A stretch of DNA of 64,000 nucleotides from an uncultured Spirochaetales bacterium (GTDB taxonomy: Bacteria; Spirochaetota; Spirochaetia; Sphaerochaetales; Sphaerochaetaceae). Both the position numbers and the translations under genes were made by a program. A model generated the notes under the pieces. It saw nothing but the letters and a program-made list of their open reading frames with translations. It searched no databases and had not been told where the DNA came from. How positions within the stretch are numbered: position 1 is the first letter of the stretch; each line of letters opens with the position of its first letter. The DNA lies in the NCBI GenBank assembly GCA_949288415.1, contig CASEKE010000004.1, forward strand, positions 1-64,000. The letters run 5' to 3'. Positions 34,993 through 47,271 of this stretch are shown here, piece after piece.

Positions 34993-35748
34993 CTACATAG
35001 GAATATAATCGTCGGCTTCGGTGAAACAGTGCATCATCAGAGGAGGAAGGATCTTGAGCCCTGCGCCGAAAGTATAGTCCTCGTTCACCGCCAGCTGGGT
35101 CGCCCTGTTTGTGAAGTACACCCTGTAAAGGGCAAGGAGTTCGTCGCTGAACTGGCTCTTGTGGAACTCCATCGCCTTGAAGCGCCGTACCAAAGTAGTG
35201 GATACGTCGAGTATGACGTTCGGCTTCGCAGTCAGGTAGTAGGCCATCAGAGTGACCGAATGGGGAGTCGTCGACGTTCCGCGCGGATACTCCATCAAAG
35301 AAGACGAGATCACCGCCTGGCTCGTGGCCTTTGCCGTGACGATGTGGTCCATATGCGACTCGTATGGAAGATACGGATCCGGAGAGAGCACTAGATCGGG
35401 CCTGTAGCTTCTTATCACCTCCGCGATGCGTCCTGCAAGCGCGGGCACATCCTTCAGCGCTCCGTCCTTCTCGTCGAGATATGTGAATCCGTCGACTCCC
35501 AGATATCTTCCACTGGCCTCCGTCTCCATTTTGCGTATGGCCACGATGCTCTCCTTTGGAATGTCGGGGGAATTGACGCCGAGAGAGCCGTCCGTCACCG
35601 TCAGGTAGTGGATCTCCGCCCCGCTGTCATGGAGCTTCGCGATCACGTCGCCAGCGCCTACCTCGGCATCGTCGGGATGTGGCTGGACGACCAGCACTCT
35701 CCTCATTGAAAGAATGTCATACTTAGGAAGCAATTCGCCAAGTTCCAC
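34993..35748 (-). CDS. PIG-L family deacetylase
   Basis: A 251-residue zinc hydrolase of the LmbE/PIG-L family. The metal motif QPHPDDAEVGAG (His and Asp near residues 23-26) and the later HMDH (about residue 132) are present, with TVTDGSLG between them. Relatives remove acetyl from N-acetylglucosamine-type groups in glycolipids, mycothiol, bacillithiol or chitobiose. It begins with GTG at 35748, behind AAGGAGGG. It is downstream of manA and a uridine-kinase-like gene, so amino-sugar or mannose metabolism is a possible context. Confidence 0.9.
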   Translation of the reverse strand: MELGELLPKYDILSMRRVLVVQPHPDDAEVGAGDVIAKLHDSGAEIHYLTVTDGSLGVNSPDIPKESIVAIRKMETEASGRYLGVDGFTYLDEKDGALKDVPALAGRIAEVIRSYRPDLVLSPDPYLPYESHMDHIVTAKATSQAVISSSLMEYPRGTSTTPHSVTLMAYYLTAKPNVILDVSTTLVRRFKAMEFHKSQFSDELLALYRVYFTNRATQLAVNEDYTFGAGLKILPPLMMHCFTEADDYIPM

Positions 35749-37659: not shown

Positions 37660-39339
37660 CTAGTTCTCCAGGTCGACGAATCCTATCATGTCGTTGATGC
37701 TTGCGCCCGGGGCGACCATCGGAAGCACTTTGTCGTCCGTAGGAATCTCGCAGTCGATGACCACGGCCTCACCGAGTCCGATGGCCTCCTTGAGCTTCTC
37801 CTCCGGATCGTCGTCGAGGGATATTCTCATTCCCTTGATTCCGTATGCTCCCGCGAGCATCACCCAGTCGATCGGGGTATCGAGCGTGGTCTCGCTGTAA
37901 TGCCCCTCGTAGAACAGGGTCTGCCACTGGCGCACCATGCCGAGGCAATGGTTGTTCATGATGAGGATTATTATCGGCAGGCGGTACCTGGCGATCGTCG
38001 CAAGCTCGTTGCAGTTCATCCTGAACGATCCATCTCCTGCGACGTTCACGACCCTTGTCCTGGGGTGGGACACCTGTGCTCCTATGGCAGCCCCGGTGCC
38101 GTAGCCCATCGTCCCGAGTCCGCCGGAAGTAAGGTAACGGTTCGCCCTGAGACTCTTGACGAACTGCGCAACCCACATCTGGTGCTGTCCTACCTCCGTC
38201 GTGATTATGTTGTCCTCGGGCAGCTGATGGACAAGCGCCCTCAGAATCTCCCTGGCTCTTTTGCTCTCCGTCGTCGTCTTCATCGGGAAACGACGTCTGG
38301 CATTCTGGATGAACTTTAGCCATTCCGAATGGTCAAGATTCTCGTCAAGCATGCTGTCGAGCCGCTCGAGCACGACCTTTATATCGCCCATCACCTGGTG
38401 ATGCGTGATGATGTTCTTGTTGAACTCCGCCGGATCGACGTCTATCTGGAGCACCTTGGCCTGCTTGGCGAAAGAGTTCGGATTAGAAATGACCCGGTCC
38501 GAAAACCTTGCACCGACCACAACGAGCAGGTCGCAACGGTTGACGCTCATGTTCGAAAGCTTCGTGCCATGCATGCCAACCATCCCCGTGAAGCGCGGAT
38601 TCTGGCTGAATACCGCACCAAGTCCCATGAGAGTCGAGCATACGGCCGAGTCCGTCCTGTCGAGGAATCTGTTGAGAATCTCGCTGGCCCTGCTGCGGAT
38701 CACGCCTCCGCCGATGTAGAACATCGGTCTCTCAGAGGCCTTGATCATCTCGAGAGCCTTCTCGAGGTCCTTCTGTCTCAGATGCTTGACGACAGGCTCC
38801 ACCTTGCGCGGGACGGCAGGAGTGAACTCCGTGGAGTTGACCTGGAGGTCCTTCGGCACATCGATCAGAACAGGTCCCGGACGGCCTTCGCGGGCGATGT
38901 AGAAAGCTTCGCGGATGGTATCTGCAAGCTCTTCTATGTCCTTGATGATGAAATTGTGCTTCGTGATGGGCATTGTTATGCCTGTGATGTCCACCTCCTG
39001 GAAGCTGTCCCTTCCGAGCAGGTTGAGCGCAACGTTGCCTGTTATGGCTACCACGGGGACGCTGTCCATGTACGCAGTCGCAAGACCGGTTACGAGGTTG
39101 GTCGCTCCCGGGCCGCTCGTAGCGATGCATACCCCGACGTTGCCTGTGCTCCTCGCATAGCCGTCGGCGGCATGGCTCGCGCCCTGTTCATGGGCCGTAA
39201 GAATATGCCTTATCCTGCCTTTGTTCTCGTACAGGGCATCGTAGATAGGAATGACGGCACCTCCCGGATAGCCGAAAACGGTGTCGACACCTTCCTCAAT
39301 GAGACATTCGATTATAATTTCAGCACCTTTGAGCAGCAT
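37660..39339 (-). CDS. ilvB: Acetolactate synthase large (catalytic) subunit
   Basis: A 559-residue thiamine-diphosphate enzyme that condenses two pyruvates, or pyruvate with 2-ketobutyrate. The N-terminal ThDP Glu lies in LTAHEQGASHAADGYAR (about residue 47). The FAD/middle domain has GVIRSRASE and GMHGT. The C-terminal ThDP-Mg site is GDGSFRMNCNEL with NNHCLGMVRQWQ. The start is taken as the ATG overlapping the ilvD stop (TGATG); a GTG one codon earlier is equally readable. It is the last gene of the operon, far from its small subunit ilvN. Confidence 0.96.
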   Translation of the reverse strand: MLLKGAEIIIECLIEEGVDTVFGYPGGAVIPIYDALYENKGRIRHILTAHEQGASHAADGYARSTGNVGVCIATSGPGATNLVTGLATAYMDSVPVVAITGNVALNLLGRDSFQEVDITGITMPITKHNFIIKDIEELADTIREAFYIAREGRPGPVLIDVPKDLQVNSTEFTPAVPRKVEPVVKHLRQKDLEKALEMIKASERPMFYIGGGVIRSRASEILNRFLDRTDSAVCSTLMGLGAVFSQNPRFTGMVGMHGTKLSNMSVNRCDLLVVVGARFSDRVISNPNSFAKQAKVLQIDVDPAEFNKNIITHHQVMGDIKVVLERLDSMLDENLDHSEWLKFIQNARRRFPMKTTTESKRAREILRALVHQLPEDNIITTEVGQHQMWVAQFVKSLRANRYLTSGGLGTMGYGTGAAIGAQVSHPRTRVVNVAGDGSFRMNCNELATIARYRLPIIILIMNNHCLGMVRQWQTLFYEGHYSETTLDTPIDWVMLAGAYGIKGMRISLDDDPEEKLKEAIGLGEAVVIDCEIPTDDKVLPMVAPGASINDMIGFVDLEN

Positions 39340-41012
39340 CACTCCTCCTTGATTATCGCACCTTCGTCGGCACTGCTCACGTGCCTGGCATAGCGTGCGA
39401 GATATCCTGTCCTTATCGGAGCCGTATACGGCTTCGCCTCTTTTCTTCTTTTCTCTAGGGTCTTCTCGTCAACGAGAAGGTCCAGCGTCCCGTTCTCGAT
39501 GTCGATCCTGATCATGTCCCCTTCCCTGACAAGGGCTATCGGACCTCCGTCGGCGGCCTCAGGAGAACAGTGGCCTATGGATGCGCCGCGCGTGGCTCCG
39601 GAAAAGCGTCCGTCCGTGATAAGCGCGACTTCCTTGTCCAGACCCATGCCTGCGATCGCGCTCGTCGGCGAGAGCATCTCGCGCATTCCCGGACCGCCCT
39701 TCGGTCCCTCGTAGCGGATGATGACGACGTCTCCGCTTACGATCTTGCGTCCGAAGATGGCCTTAATGGCCTCCTCCTCGCTGTCGAACACACGTGCCGG
39801 TCCCTCGTGCTTCATCATTTCAGGTGCGACCGCACTTCTCTTCACGACCGCGCCAGACGGGGCGAGAGAGCCCTTGAGAACCGCAATTCCTCCAGTCGGG
39901 GAATAAGGATCGTCTATCGGCCTTATGACGGAAGTATCGTAGTTCACGGCATTGAGGAAGGATTCCCCGATTGTGCGCCCGGTGACCGTCATGAGATCCG
40001 TGCGAAGGAGATTCTTCTTCGAGAGCTCGTGCATGACCGCCATGACACCTCCCGCAAGCTCGAGGTCCTCCATATGATCGGGTCCAGCAGGTGCCAGATG
40101 GCAGAGATTCGGAGTCGTCGCGCTGAGGCGGTTTGCGTCGAAGATGTCGACCTTGATGCCCGCCTCGTGGGCGATTGCCGGAATGTGGAGCATCGTGTTC
40201 GTGCTGCAGCCGAGCGCCATATCCACCTTGAGAGCGTTCTCGAACGCATCCTTTGTCATTATGTCGAGAGGACGGATATTTTTCTCAAGAAGCTCCATGA
40301 CCTTGTATCCGGCCTCCTTTGCAAGACGCTCGCGAGCCGAATACACGGCGGGAATGGTTCCGTTGCCGGGCAGGCCCATTCCGATCGCCTCCGTAAGGCA
40401 GTTCATGCTGTTCGCAGTATACATGCCGGAGCAGGATCCGCATGTCGGGCATGCGGAGTTCTCCCATTCGAGGAACTCCTTGTCGTCCATTTTTCCGGCC
40501 GCCTTCTTTCCGACCGCCTCGAACATGGACGAAAGGCTCATGCCCTTCTTAGAGCCTCCGCGGACGTGTCCGGCAAGCATCGGGCCTCCGGATACGAAGA
40601 TGGACGGGAGGTTGAGCCTTGCTGCGGCCATGAGCATTCCGGGCACTATCTTGTCGCAGTTGGGGACGAACACCAGGGCATCGAACGGATGCGCCGTGGC
40701 CATGACCTCTATGCTGTCCGCGATCAGTTCCCTGGAGGCGAGCGAGTACTTCATTCCCTTATGTCCCATCGCGATTCCGTCGCAGACGCCGATGACGGGG
40801 AACACGACAGGATTTCCTCCGGCTTCCCTCACCCCGGCCTTGACGGCCTCGACTATTCTCGCGAGCTCCTTGTGTCCGGGAATTATCTCGTTCTGTCCTG
40901 ATACTATGCCGACGATCGGCATCTCTATTTCCCTGTCGGTCCACCCAAGAGCCTTCATCAGGGATCTGTGGGGAGCCCTGTCGTCTCCCCTCTTCATAAG
41001 GTCCGATCTCAT
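39339..41012 (-). CDS. ilvD: Dihydroxy-acid dehydratase
   Basis: A 557-residue Fe-S dehydratase for the third step of valine/isoleucine synthesis. Cluster cysteines occur in [10 protein letters not shown] and [19 protein letters not shown]. Also visible are [22 protein letters not shown] and [11 protein letters not shown] near the C-terminus, where the catalytic Ser lies. The start follows AAGGAGGATTGT and overlaps leuB by ATGA. Confidence 0.97.
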
Positions 41013-42076
41013 ACAATCCTCCTTGCAATCTCATCGCCCATTGCGGAAGTGCCGATCCAGGCCCCGCCTTCGGAAGCGATGTCCTTGGTTCTCAGTCCGT
41101 CCGAGAGTGCGGAGGCTACGGCTTTCTCCACCGCATCCGCCTCCCTGGCCATCGAGAAGCTGTATCTGAGCATCATCGCGGCGGAAAGTATCGTCGCGAT
41201 CGGATTTGCCACATCCTGGCCGGCGATGTCCGGCGCCGATCCATGTATAGGTTCGTACATGCCGTAGCTGTCTGTCCTGAGCGAAGCGGACGGAAGCATG
41301 CCGATAGATCCTGTTATCATGCTGGCCTCGTCCGAAAGAATATCCCCGAACATGTTCTCCGTGACGATGACGTCGAACTGCGCAGGATTGCGCACCAACT
41401 GCATCGAGGCATTGTCGACATAGAGATTCGAAAGCTCCACGTCCGGATAGTCCTCCGATACTGCCTTCACTGTCTCTCTCCAAAGTCTCGACGTCTCGAG
41501 CACGTTGGCCTTGTCGACGCTGGTGACCTTTCCTCTCCTCCTGCGGGCGATCTCGAAGGCCTTGCGTGCAATCCTGTCGATCTCCCCCTTCGAGTACGAC
41601 ATCACGTCATAGGCTTCGTTCCCGTCGTCGATCCTGCCCTTCTTTCCGAAGTAGATTCCGCCAGTGAGCTCCCGCACGACCATCACGTCAAGTCCATCGC
41701 CGACGATATCGCTTCTGAGAGGACAGGCGTCTGCAAGTTCCTTGTACAGGATCGCAGGACGGAGATTGCAGAAAAGTCCGAGACCGCTTCTGAGTCCCAG
41801 AAGCGCCTTCTCGGGGCGCATCGCGCCCGGAAGGGAATCCCATTTCGGGCCGCCTACTGCTCCTAGAAGCGTGCTGTCAGCCTTTTTCGCCCTGTCGAGC
41901 GTCTCGTCGGTCAACGGCACACCGTACTCGTCTATGGAGCATCCGCCGGCCAGCAGATAGTCGTATTCGAACTCGTGGGAATACGCCTTGGCCACCTTGT
42001 CGAGAACCTTGACAGCCTCTCTGACGATATCGGGTCCGATCCCGTCCCCGGGAATGACGGCAATTCTCTTTTTCAT
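41009..42076 (-). CDS. leuB: 3-isopropylmalate dehydrogenase
   Basis: A 355-residue NAD-dependent decarboxylating dehydrogenase that makes 2-ketoisocaproate. It has [12 protein letters not shown] at the N-terminus, [36 protein letters not shown] and the metal-binding [14 protein letters not shown]. The length is typical. It overlaps leuD and ilvD by 4 bases each. Confidence 0.97.
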
Positions 42077-42567
42077 TTTCCGGCCTCCTTTGCCATGTAC
42101 GGAGCAAGTCCGCCGGCCTCTATCAGAGCCTGCATGAACGGAGGGAACGGCTCGGCATGGTAACTCCTGCCGCTCGTGATGTCGTCTATTCTGCCGGACG
42201 TGAAGTCGACCACGACCTCATCTCCGGCGGCTATCTCCCGGCTCGCTTCGGGACACTCTAGGATCGGAAGACCTATGTTAATGCTGTTGCGGAAGAATAT
42301 CCGGGCGAAAGTCTCGGCGATGACGCAGCTCACTCCCGATGCCTTTATCGCGATCGGTGCGTGCTCGCGGGAAGATCCGCAACCGAAATTCCGTCCTGCA
42401 ACGATGATATCGCCTCTGGCGACATTGGAAACGAAGTCCTTGTCGATGTCCTCCATGCAGTGGAGAGCAAGCTCCTCGGGCTTCGACGTATTGAGATATC
42501 TGGCCGGTATGATCACGTCCGTATCGACGTTGTCTCCGTATCTATGTACCTTTCCTTCTGCCTTCAT
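42073..42567 (-). CDS. leuD: 3-isopropylmalate dehydratase small subunit
   Basis: A 164-residue swivel subunit of the short (archaeal/LeuD2) type. [14 protein letters not shown] near the N-terminus and [12 protein letters not shown] identify the family. It works with LeuC to isomerise 2- to 3-isopropylmalate. The frame is open 96 codons upstream inside leuC, but the ATG at 42567 follows GAGGTTATGGA and overlaps the leuC stop. Confidence 0.96.
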
Positions 42568-43829
42568 TCCATAACCTCCTCGGGATGGGCTATCCTGCCC
42601 AGCACCGCACTTGCCGCGGCGACGTACGGGGATGCCAGATACACCTCGCTTCTGACGTGTCCCATTCTTCCGACGAAGTTGCGGTTCGTCGTGCTGATGC
42701 ATCTCTCGTTCTCTGCAAGTATGCCCATGTAGCCTCCCAGACACGGTCCGCATGTGGGAGTGGAAATGACGCAGCCCGCATCCAGGAATACGTCGAAGAG
42801 GCCTTCCTGCATGCACTGCCTCCAGATTTTCTGGGTCGCCGGAATCACGATGCATCTCACTCCGTCTGCTATCTTATGCCCTCGGAGTATCTCCGCTGCA
42901 GCCCTCATGTCGGAAATCCGTCCGTTCGTGCATGATCCTATCACTGCCTGATCGATCCCGACATTTCCCGAATCCTTTACAAGATGCGTGTTCTCGGGAA
43001 GATGCGGGAAGGCCACGGTGCATTCGATATCTCCGAGGTCGATCTCGATCTTCCGGGAATATGTGCAGTCCGCATCGGCCTCGAATATGCGCGGTTCTCT
43101 GGCACCCGATTCCCTCAGGTATTCCAGAGTCTTTTCGTCGACGGGGAAGATTCCGGCCTTGCCTCCAGCCTCGATGGCCATGTTCGAGATCGTGAACCTG
43201 TCGTCCATGCTCAGGTTTGCGACGCCATCGCCGGAGAACTCCATCGATTTGTAGAGTGCCCCATCAACTCCGATCATTCCTATCAGGTGGAGTATTACGT
43301 CCTTTCCCGTGACGTAGCGCCCGAGCTTTCCCTTCAGGACGATTCCGATGGTTTCGGGAACCTTGAACCAGGCCTTTCCCGTCGCCATGCCGCAGGCCAT
43401 GTCGGTGGATCCGACGCCGGTCGAGAACGCGCCGAGCGCGCCGTATGTGCATGTATGGCTGTCGGCACCGATGACGACGTCGCCGGCGGTCACGAGCCCT
43501 TTCTCAGGAAGAAGTGCATGCTCGATGCCCATCTGACCGACCTCGAAATAGTTCTTGATGCCTTCCTTCTTTGCGAATGCCCTGACACAGGCACACTGCT
43601 CGGCGGCCTTTATATCCTTGTTCGGCGCGAAATGATCAGGTACCAGGGCGACCTTGTCCGTATCGAACACGTGGTCCCTGCCGAATTTTGCGAATTCCCT
43701 TATTGCCACGGGACTCGTTATGTCGTTTCCGAGGACCATATCCAGGTCGGCCATGATAAGCTGACCGGGATGGACGCTGTCAAGTCCGGCGGCACGTGCG
43801 AGAATCTTCTCGCTCATCGTCATGCCCAT
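42564..43829 (-). CDS. leuC: 3-isopropylmalate dehydratase large subunit
   Basis: A 421-residue aconitase-family protein of the short LeuC2/homoaconitase-like clade. Cluster ligands are in VIGSCTNGR and [28 protein letters not shown] is the substrate-binding signature. Members of this clade can also act on homoaconitate or citraconate, but the operon fixes the leucine role. GGGAGGAG lies ten bases before the ATG. Confidence 0.95.
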
Positions 43830-43833
43830 ATTT

Positions 43834-45447
43834 CTACTCCTCCCCTTTCTTGTCCGTGTGCTCGAAGAGCATGTCGTTCTCGAATGAGAGCTTCGTGGCC
43901 GTATTCACCCCGTCTGCCCCCCTGATTGCGCCTTCCTGCTCGCAGAGCATCTTGTTGACGGCATTGAGACAGGCCAAGATGCTTGCCTCGACGACGTCGG
44001 TCGAAACGCCGCGTCCGCGGTATGTACCGCTGCTGTCCGTCACCTTGACGAGCGCCTCTCCGAGAGCATCCTTGTGTTCGGTTACCGCCTGGAGCTGGTA
44101 CTCGTCCAGGCTGAACGGATGCTTTATTATTTTCTCCACGCATCGAAGCGACGCGTACACGGGTCCTGTACCCGCAGCCACCTCCTGATAGAGCTTTCCG
44201 TCGGAAATCTTTTTGAGTGTCATGCAGGCGGTACTCGTCATATGGTTTCCGCTGTTGACTACGAAGCTCTCGAGGGCCCAGATGGTCCTTTCGGGATTCT
44301 CCTTGGCCTCGACGAGGGCGACGATGTCCCTGTCGGATATCTTTTTCTTCTTGTCGCAGAGGTTCTTGAAGTCCTGGAAAAGACTCGTCTCCTCTTCCTT
44401 CGAGACAATGTAGCCGAGCTCCTCGAGCTTCTTGGAGAAGGCGTGCTGACCCGAGTGCTTTCCGAGCACCAGGCTCGTCTTGACCACGCCGACCGACTCC
44501 GGGGTCATTATCTCGTATGTCTTCTTGTTTGCCAGCATCCCGTGCTGGTGTATTCCGCTCTCGTGGGCGAACGCGTTGTCTCCGACGATCGCCTTGGACG
44601 GATTGATCTTGACACCTGTGGTGTTCGACAGCAGACGCGCCGTCCGGAATATCTCCTCGGTCACGATGCCGTTCGTGTATTCGAACTTGTCCCCTCTGGT
44701 CTTCATAGCCATGACAAGTTCCTCGAGGGCGGCATTTCCTGCCCTCTCTCCGATACCGCATACCGTACACTCGATCTGCCGTGCACCGGCCTCTATGCCG
44801 GCAAGCGAATTTGCAACCGCGAGCCCGAGATCGTTGTGGTTGTGCATGCTGATCACGGCCTTGTCTATATTGCGTACATGCTCTTTGACGTACATGACCA
44901 TCGCCTTGATCTCGTCAGGCGTGGAATACCCCACGGTGTCCGGAAGGTTCACCGTAGTAGCTCCGCACTCGATCGCCTTCTCGACTGCCGCGGCAAGGAA
45001 GGCAAGATCCGTCCTTGTCGCATCCTCGCAAGAGAATTCGATGTCGTCGCAGAGACTCTTTGCGTACGTCACGTTCTCCTCGATGCGTCTGAGAGCCTCC
45101 TCGCGGGAGATTTTCAGCTTGTATTCGAGGTGCAGATCGCTCGTCGCGAGGAACACGTGGATCCTCGGATGTCTGGCCTTTTTGACTGCATTCCATGCGG
45201 CGTCGATGTCTTTCTTCAGTGCTCTGGCCAGAGATGCGACCACCGGGCGCTCGACAGCGCCCGCAATCGCTTCTACCGATTCGAAATCTCCGGGGCTTGA
45301 TATGGCGAAGCCCGCCTCTATTATGTCGACTCCCAGTGTCTCAAGCTGCTTGGCCATCCTGATCTTTTCGTCGAGATTCATGCTGTAGCCGGGCGCCTGC
45401 TCCCCATCACGGAGCGTAGTATCAAATATAAAGATTCTCTCCGCCAT
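43834..45447 (-). CDS. leuA: 2-isopropylmalate synthase
   Basis: A 537-residue enzyme committing 2-ketoisovalerate to leucine. The TIM barrel starts with [13 protein letters not shown] and includes [18 protein letters not shown] (metal His pair) and [11 protein letters not shown]. The C-terminal regulatory LeuA domain starts near residue 400 and implies feedback inhibition by leucine. The length is slightly above the E. coli 523. GGGGAGGACAGGAT precedes the ATG. Confidence 0.95.
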
Positions 45448-45471: not shown

Positions 45472-46497
<1,026 letters not shown>

Positions 46498-46506
46498 TTA
46501 TGATTC

Positions 46507-47040
46507 TCAGCGATCCTCCACCGAGTCCAGACTCGAAAGAGGTCTGGAACCTCTCTCGAGAGCGGTGATGCCGGTCCTGGAAAGCTCCACGATTCCGAAC
46601 GGCTCGGCAAGGGAAAGGAACGACGCAAGCTTCTCGAGCGAGCCGGTCACCATCAGCGTAACGGTCTCCGGAGTAACGTCGATTATCTTTGCCTTGTAGA
46701 TCTCCCCTATCTCGATGATCTGCGTCCTGGTATTCACATCGGCCCTGAGCTTGATGAGAACGAGCTCCCTCTGTAGGGATCCCGAACCGGTCATCTCGAA
46801 TACGTTCCTTACGTCGAAGAGCTTCCCGACCTGGCGCTTGATCTGCTCGATTATCCGTCTGTCGCCGGTCGTGACGATTGTTATGCGGCTCACGCGGCTG
46901 TCCTCGGTCTCCCCTACGCTTAGAGAGTCGATGTTGTAGCCCCTTCTCGAGAAAAGTCCTACAACGCGCATCAGCACGCCCGCCTTGTTGTTCACAAGTA
47001 TTGCAAGTGTATAGCGTCCGCTCTTTTCGTTTTCGTCCAT
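46507..47040 (-). CDS. ilvN: Acetolactate synthase small (regulatory) subunit
   Basis: A 177-residue regulatory subunit. The N-terminal ACT domain starts TLAILVNNKAGVLMRVVGLFSRRGYN, and the C-terminal ACT-like domain follows residue 85. It binds valine and stimulates the IlvB subunit. The frame opens 16 codons earlier, but the ATG at 47040 follows AAGGAGGTGCCGG and lies after the attenuator T-run. It is the first structural gene of the operon, seven genes away from ilvB. Confidence 0.95.
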   Translation of the reverse strand: MDENEKSGRYTLAILVNNKAGVLMRVVGLFSRRGYNIDSLSVGETEDSRVSRITIVTTGDRRIIEQIKRQVGKLFDVRNVFEMTGSGSLQRELVLIKLRADVNTRTQIIEIGEIYKAKIIDVTPETVTLMVTGSLEKLASFLSLAEPFGIVELSRTGITALERGSRPLSSLDSVEDR

Positions 47041-47056
47041 CCGGCACCTCCTTGAT

Positions 47057-47121
47057 AAAAAAAACGACCCGTGGATTCTCTCTGCCACGGGCCTATACGA
47101 ACATCCAGCTACAACCGTGGT
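47057..47121 (-). terminator. Attenuator of the ilv-leu operon
   Basis: On the minus strand three segments follow the leader peptide: A = CCACGG (47115-47120), B = CCCGTGG (47085-47091) and C = CCACGGG (47068-47074), then eight T residues. B with C makes the terminator; A with B makes the antiterminator. A is next to the leader stop codon, so a ribosome that finishes the peptide covers A and lets the terminator form. Confidence 0.88.
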
Positions 47122-47202
47122 CTAGCAAAAAATAAGTAGGACTACGAGTGTAAGAAGGAGGGAGGACAATCCATGCTTCATCTTTTTTCCATTGCTTGTC
47201 AT
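47122..47202 (-). CDS. ilv-leu operon leader peptide
   Basis: A 26-codon open frame starting ATG at 47202 with a very strong site (GGAAGGAGG) and ending TAG at 47124-47122. Its C-terminal part reads LSSLLLTLVVLLIFC: seven Leu, two Val and one Ile in the last 15 residues. Such a run of regulatory codons is the hallmark of branched-chain amino acid attenuation. When charged tRNA-Leu, -Val or -Ile is short the ribosome stalls here, the antiterminator forms and ilvN to ilvB are transcribed. The peptide itself probably has no other function. Confidence 0.9.
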   Translation of the reverse strand: MTSNGKKMKHGLSSLLLTLVVLLIFC

Positions 47203-47242
47203 CTCTGGCCTCCTTCCGGGATTCTTTCTTTAGATATCATCG

Positions 47243-47271
47243 TTTTTACGCTTTTAACAAAAGAAAGTCAA
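47243..47271 (-). promoter_or_regulatory. Promoter of the ilv-leu operon
   Basis: Minus-strand TTGACT, 17 bases, TAAAAA. The start would be near 47236, giving about 34 bases before the leader peptide. Confidence 0.6.

Follow-up and report, generated by a model that had tools for sequence, protein, structure and literature searches.

A predicted ribosome-mediated attenuator precedes the ilv-leu operon in Sphaerochaetaceae

Attenuation through a leader peptide is a known kind of control: it has been described for the leu and ilv operons of enteric bacteria, for trp and ilvB in Actinobacteria, and for the ilv-leu operon of Staphylococcus aureus. The statement that Firmicutes use T-boxes for this task instead, made in an earlier sequence-only reading of the DNA studied here, is too simple: in S. 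aureus a Leu-rich attenuator peptide does this work (PMC5794164). Within the spirochaetes, the "ilvB motif" of Leptospira (PMC8632094) was re-read in 2023 as a uORF attenuator of branched-chain amino acid (BCAA) synthesis, a prediction only (PMC10272879). The sequence-only reading knew of no described case for this spirochaete group, which holds for Sphaerochaetaceae, where we found none, but not for the phylum, where the Leptospira leader had been predicted. Our search for earlier descriptions of attenuation in Sphaerochaeta or Sphaerochaetaceae, which found none, covered few subscription papers and hence is no proof of novelty. What we regard as new is the family-wide extent of the element, the likely replacement of a T-box, the presence of a thrS T-box in the same genome, and the existence of sister genera without a recognizable intrinsic terminator.

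The locus lies in a stretch of 64,000 nucleotides (the window) from an uncultured Spirochaetales bacterium, whose genome assembly comprises 2.08 Mb and is 87% complete. The leader peptide, MTSNGKKMKHGLSSLLLTLVVLLIFC, is encoded from an ATG at 47202 to a TAG at 47124-47122, and its tail reads LSSLLLTLVVLLIFC; ten of its last 15 codons specify Leu (seven), Val (two), or Ile (one). These counts, the 26-codon frame, its ribosome site, the segments, and the T8 tract had been reported in the sequence-only reading, and sequence and coordinates agree with ours (Table 1). The operon that follows has the order ilvN-ilvC-leuA-leuC-leuD-leuB-ilvD-ilvB, with the ilvN ATG at 47040. Given this gene content, its products, Leu, Val, and Ile, are exactly the three leader amino acids. 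The true start of leuD is probably internal to the longest open reading frame, since the family match begins well inside it. Upstream of the leader, the sequence predicts a sigma-70-like promoter; TTGACA/T with a spacer of 16-18 nt recurs 5' of most sampled leaders. Elsewhere in the window (34996-35748, minus strand), close to a manA-like gene, lies the coding sequence of a protein whose match to the bacillithiol deacetylase BshB family is below the cut-off.

Table 1. Features of the leader region and the ilv-leu operon in the window
Feature	Position	Strand	Basis
-35 element TTGACT	47266..47271	-	consensus match only
Putative -10 element TAAAAA, 17 nt spacer, 40 nt 5' of leader ATG	47243..47248	-	sequence
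Leader Shine-Dalgarno AAGGAGG	47209..47215	-	sequence
Leader peptide frame, 26 codons + TAG	47122..47202	-	ORF; frame kept in 84 distinct leaders
Segment 1 CCACGG, antiterminator 5' arm, 1 base past stop codon	47115..47120	-	sequence
Segment 2 GGCCCGTGG, partner of segment 1 (via CCGUGG, antiterminator) or segment 3 (terminator)	47085..47093	-	
Segment 3 CCACGGGTC, 3' arm of 9-bp terminator stem	47066..47074	-	folding
T8 tract of intrinsic terminator; predicted 3' end of short RNA	47057..47064	-	sequence
ilvN Shine-Dalgarno	47047..47053	-	sequence
ilvN, acetolactate synthase small subunit, first structural gene	46507..47040	-	NCBIfam PRK11895.1, TIGR00119
ilvC	45472..46455	-	family match
leuA	43834..45447	-	family match
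leuC	42564..43829	-	family match
leuD	42073..42855	-	family match starts at residue 101 of longest ORF
leuB	41009..42076	-	family match
ilvD	39339..41012	-	family match
ilvB, acetolactate synthase large subunit, last operon gene	37660..39342	-	family match

The leader frame and the segments after it at 47202-47057 are confirmed as real and not a product of chance. A comparison set of 1.50 Mb from other ilv loci contained, with both strands summed, 25 frames that are preceded by a Shine-Dalgarno sequence and have at least nine Leu, Ile, or Val (L/I/V) codons among their last 15, and none of these 25 is followed directly past its stop by a GC-rich 1:2 stem. Two frames in the window reach the same L/I/V content, and one of them, the reported leader, has the stem. 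The window sequence can form a terminator before the T run (2:3 stem, 9 bp, -16.3 kcal/mol) or an antiterminator (1:2 stem, 6 bp, -10.6 kcal/mol); CCGUGG is common to both, so the two folds are mutually exclusive by sequence overlap. Folded with its flanks, the terminator region has a z-score of only -0.7, and the case for an attenuator therefore rests on relatives rather than on folding energy. No phage match of the leader was found.

A covariance model built on the region from the stop codon to the T run matches its own genome once, at the reported site. It detects the element in 53 of 139 genomes of the family, with one match each, just upstream of ilvN; the family genomes that lack ilvN yield no match. 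Loss of the leader and hairpins in close relatives, which the sequence-only reading had named as an outcome that would speak against it, was seen in one genome only of these two genera: the element is retained in 40 of the 41 ilvN-bearing genomes of the same genus, and all 13 such genomes of the sister genus match as well. The alignment with relatives that it had proposed shows the frame, the L/I/V tail, the order of the segments, and the T run preserved in genomes that have diverged elsewhere, with synonymous choice skewed to CUA, AUU, and GUA. The nearest relatives are Spirochaetales, and one locus in the same IlvN group is recorded as Sphaerochaeta, so that the family is probably Sphaerochaetaceae. 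The sole ilvN-bearing genome of the genus without the leader (G011, locus L120) has a promoter-like TTGACA close to ilvN; its sister, G027, retains the leader, and G011 looks like a recent natural loss of the attenuator. Seven further genomes of the genus (G005, G013, G014, G019, G022, G031, and G040) have neither an ilvN match nor an attenuator; two of the seven are at least 96% complete, and judged by their gene content all seven are likely BCAA auxotrophs.

Ten further genera, sampled by hand, have before ilvN a longer leader of 38 to about 90 codons, with a tail of the same kind and with the 1:2 stem retained; one genome (G117), whose ilvN is of low identity, has no such leader there. Two other families also include spirochaetes with such leaders, three in all (L125, L126, and L090). 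The segment order in L090 is the same by eye, and its letters are wholly different (GAGCCC, GGGCTCCC, GGGGAGTC). A search of about 6 kb upstream of ilvN at 40 loci from other families of spirochaetes gave five frames attributable to chance, and the switch was absent from all 40.

Conservation within the leader is concentrated at its end. Codon -3 specifies L/I/V in 100% of 84 distinct leaders, codons -4 and -8 do so in 96%, and codon -9 in 94%, and Phe, Met, Ala, Gly, and Trp are nearly absent at codons -3 to -9. The N-terminal part varies freely in sequence and length, with a total of 17 to about 90 codons; because the automatic choice of start was too long for L011, L025, L028, L211, and L221, all statistics come from the last 16-20 codons only. 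This pattern points to the codons, and not a function of the peptide, as the conserved feature. Synonymous choice is strongly biased: CUA makes up 29% of Leu codons in leaders versus 2% in the ilvN genes of those genomes (odds ratio 20, p 2e-57), where the p-value, like the other codon p-values, counts codons of related genomes as independent and is overstated, the effect size being the safer measure. AUU accounts for 67% of Ile codons versus 24% in ilvN and GUA for 45% of Val codons versus 15%; AUA and CUG are avoided. On the one hand, Ser and Thr codons in leaders show some bias too (UCU, ACA), so part of the codon bias may be a general A/U preference. On the other hand, UUA shows no such rise, an argument that CUA is preferred in its own right. 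The leu attenuator of Salmonella likewise uses CUA for Leu; there, a CUA-to-CUG swap lowered sensitivity, and theory marks CUA as the most starvation-sensitive codon, which explains the effect of the swap (PMC1183508).

The position of the RNA stem relative to the frame is nearly fixed: its core starts 0-1 nt past the stop codon in 73 of the 79 leaders counted. Judged by the ribosome's footprint, the stem core would be covered during a halt at the stop codon but not during one several codons earlier. A second, inner helix is part of the 1:2 fold when genera are compared. Taken together, the two 1:2 helices show 14 both-side changes versus 4.4 expected, a value reached in none of 500 shuffles; this covariation is far above that of slid registers, with a few alignment rows out of register and counted as unpaired. 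Compared with shuffles, the energy of the inner helix is weak in the window's genus and clearer in other genera, and at the window's own locus this inner helix (P2) is not predicted. No covariation beyond shuffles was detected for the 2:3 stem among close relatives; we treat this result as neutral, because segment 2 hardly varies, which is what a need to pair with two partners would lead one to expect.

We predict from the sequence, with high confidence, that the element governs the operon in its entirety, from ilvN through ilvB, by ribosome-mediated transcription attenuation, and the best reading of its type is a three-segment attenuator that senses the supply of Leu, Val, and Ile. The sequence-only reading spoke of a "translational attenuator": attenuation is supported by the relatives, the codon bias, and the 1:2 covariation, but the label is wrong, as the proposed process is transcription attenuation mediated by translation. 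Likewise, its comparison with enteric ilv/leu geometry stands for the competing antiterminator and terminator but not for the four-segment plan (1:2 pause, 2:3, 3:4), since the window holds three segments only and has no pause hairpin.

From these features we infer how the ribosome would be positioned, where transcription would terminate, and how starvation would act. RNA polymerase would start about 30-40 nt 5' of the leader, and a ribosome would trail it through the leader frame. With charged Leu, Val, and Ile tRNAs plentiful, the ribosome would reach the stop codon, its front over segment 1; segment 2 would then pair with segment 3, and the 9-bp hairpin with U8 would stop transcription before ilvN. 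If any one of the three amino acids were short, the ribosome would stall in the L/V/I-rich tail, several codons upstream, leaving segment 1 free to capture the newly made segment 2, so that no terminator would form and the operon would be transcribed. An untranslated leader should read through in this design, unlike in the four-segment enteric plan, which terminates.

Alternatively, the frame could encode a small functional membrane peptide or lipoprotein, with the hairpin merely its terminator: it has a basic start and a hydrophobic stretch and ends in ...LIFC, where the C near the end loosely recalls a lipoprotein signal. We consider this very improbable, given that the N-terminus and length vary so widely, that the Phe, Met, Ala, Gly, and Trp common in membrane segments are those almost absent from codons -3 to -9, that the bias toward CUA, GUA, and AUU is extreme, that in most leaders just 0-1 nt separate the stop from the antiterminator arm, and that the leader always stands before ilvN. 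We give hardly any credence to the converse view, in which the leader RNA is a riboswitch or a protein-binding element (a T-box, a ppGpp element, or similar) and the frame is incidental. A structured and conserved leader 5' of BCAA genes would suit it, as would the T-boxes that clostridial relatives carry at that place; what is conserved, however, is codons and two simple overlapping helices, which leave no space for a sensor domain. A scan of the window and its relatives against Rfam 15 gave chance matches only and no leader family, even at permissive thresholds, and the T-box model RF00230 has no match in the window.

The leader might also act on ilvN translation, by coupling or re-initiation, and not on transcription termination. 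Leader genes are frequent close upstream of genes in Spirochaetales and may aid re-initiation (PMC4833913), and the sister genera without a U-tract could be read in the same way. At this locus, however, about 80 nt separate the leader stop from the ilvN start, far more than the 10-13 nt of re-initiation, an intrinsic terminator with T8 lies between leader and ilvN, and neither hairpin includes the ilvN ribosome site; we judge control at this level very improbable.

The predicted attenuator is not equally legible in all relatives. A hairpin followed by a T-rich tract was found in 59 of the 84 leaders by a scan that missed L123 and L124, both of which have T8. Several sister genera with the same leader have no U-tract or recognizable intrinsic terminator, and the same mechanism cannot be read directly from their sequences. 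Sphaerochaeta-like genera have a CCCC/GGGG hairpin and then a stretch ending in UUAUACCC in place of the U run. In L118, L201-L206, L218, L053, and L234, the motif UUAUACCC(A) is conserved downstream of the last hairpin and before the ilvN ribosome site; the genomes with it belong to Sphaerochaeta-like genera and mostly lack a U-tract. The genera g6, g47, g51, and g54 have a very stable hairpin that excludes the 1:2 fold and has no U run after it, with -36 to -53 kcal/mol for the whole region in the four that were folded. A second, very stable hairpin of this exclusive kind, UACGCCGAUUCA.../...UGAAUCGGUGUA around ACCGUGG/CCACGGU, which is incompatible with the 1:2 fold, occurs in L209, L210, L212, L213/L058, L122, L129, and L233, where a U run after it is mostly absent; its GGUGCA is complementary to a GCACC-like stretch 5' of the ilvN ribosome site. 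Candidates for the stop of expression in the U-less variants are Rho, an unusual terminator, or translation.

The operon appears to have come from outside the phylum. In an unrooted tree of IlvN, a single short protein, the family's sequences cluster with those of the three other spirochaetes that have the leader (94/93); this cluster falls within a clade that is otherwise Bacillota (100/98) and is separate from the IlvN of other spirochaetes. A T-box lies 150-1870 nt 5' of ilvN in 12 of the 13 clostridial relatives. Because the clostridial IlvN proteins with which the family's IlvN clusters are encoded in operons that have T-boxes, a T-box was probably what the switch replaced; as the simplest story, we infer that a clostridial operon was transferred and its T-box was replaced by a leader-peptide attenuator. 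A fuller history, which we put forward tentatively and with some doubt, is that after this acquisition and replacement terminator-less forms arose, with the long exclusive hairpin of g6, g47, g51, and g54 or the hairpin and UUAUACCC of Sphaerochaeta-like genera, either stopping transcription or blocking translation.

T-boxes as such are not foreign to the family, even though none was counted in the six spirochaete genomes surveyed in 2008 (PMC2494555). The window's own genome has a T-box leader directly 5' of thrS (L244:1501-1750; G000:C29:43000-43249, plus strand; 94.3 bits, over the Rfam cut-off) with ACC (Thr) as its apparent specifier; it is the genome's only one and is located on contig C29, not on the window's contig. 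T-box matches occur in 121 of 138 family genomes, 51 of them over the Rfam cut-off, so the family never lost T-boxes altogether. The match precedes thrS, with an apparent ACC (Thr) specifier, in all three family genomes checked, the window's own included. This further weakens the contrast with Firmicutes drawn in the sequence-only reading.

It thus looks as if a whole spirochaete family controls BCAA synthesis by an apparent leader-peptide switch. More than 80 natural variants are now available for studying the rules of attenuators, namely codon choice, stop-to-stem distance, and leader length. The findings also suggest that an operon moved between phyla and that its RNA sensor was swapped, a ribosome taking the place of the T-box, with the physiological task unchanged; the recipient family nonetheless uses the T-box elsewhere.

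Compared with known systems, the element is like the enteric leu, ilvGMEDA, and ilvBN attenuators of E. coli and Salmonella in its short leader, runs of regulatory codons, competing terminator and antiterminator, and Leu/Val/Ile operon, and it shares the CUA preference of leu. Enteric attenuators, however, have four segments and a pause hairpin; here there are three segments and no pause hairpin, segment 1 lies past the stop, and 1:2 is itself the antiterminator, and no sequence relation between the leaders was found. The actinobacterial trp and candidate ilvB leaders and the Corynebacterium ilvB-II motif (PMC1262725, PMC10272879) resemble it in having a BCAA-rich leader, one per genome, before an ilv operon, and the trp attenuators have one conserved complementary triple, as does this locus with CCACGG-CCGUGG-CCACGG; they differ in sequence and lineage, and their operon begins with ilvB, whereas this one begins with ilvN. 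The Leptospira motif, compared with ours by description, is likewise a BCAA-rich leader before an ilv gene of a spirochaete, but it is confined to Leptospira (seven representatives) and precedes ilvB. The S. aureus ilv-leu leader is close in form, with 26 residues rich in Leu and Ile, an intrinsic terminator, and no T-box, but its antiterminator captures the poly-U, and CodY adds a further control (PMC5794164). Finally, the T-box of clostridial ilv leaders binds tRNA directly, whereas the spirochaete leader, which has no Rfam match, would act via the translating ribosome; in the nearest IlvN relatives the T-box stands at the place in the operon that this leader holds here, and both would sense tRNA charging.
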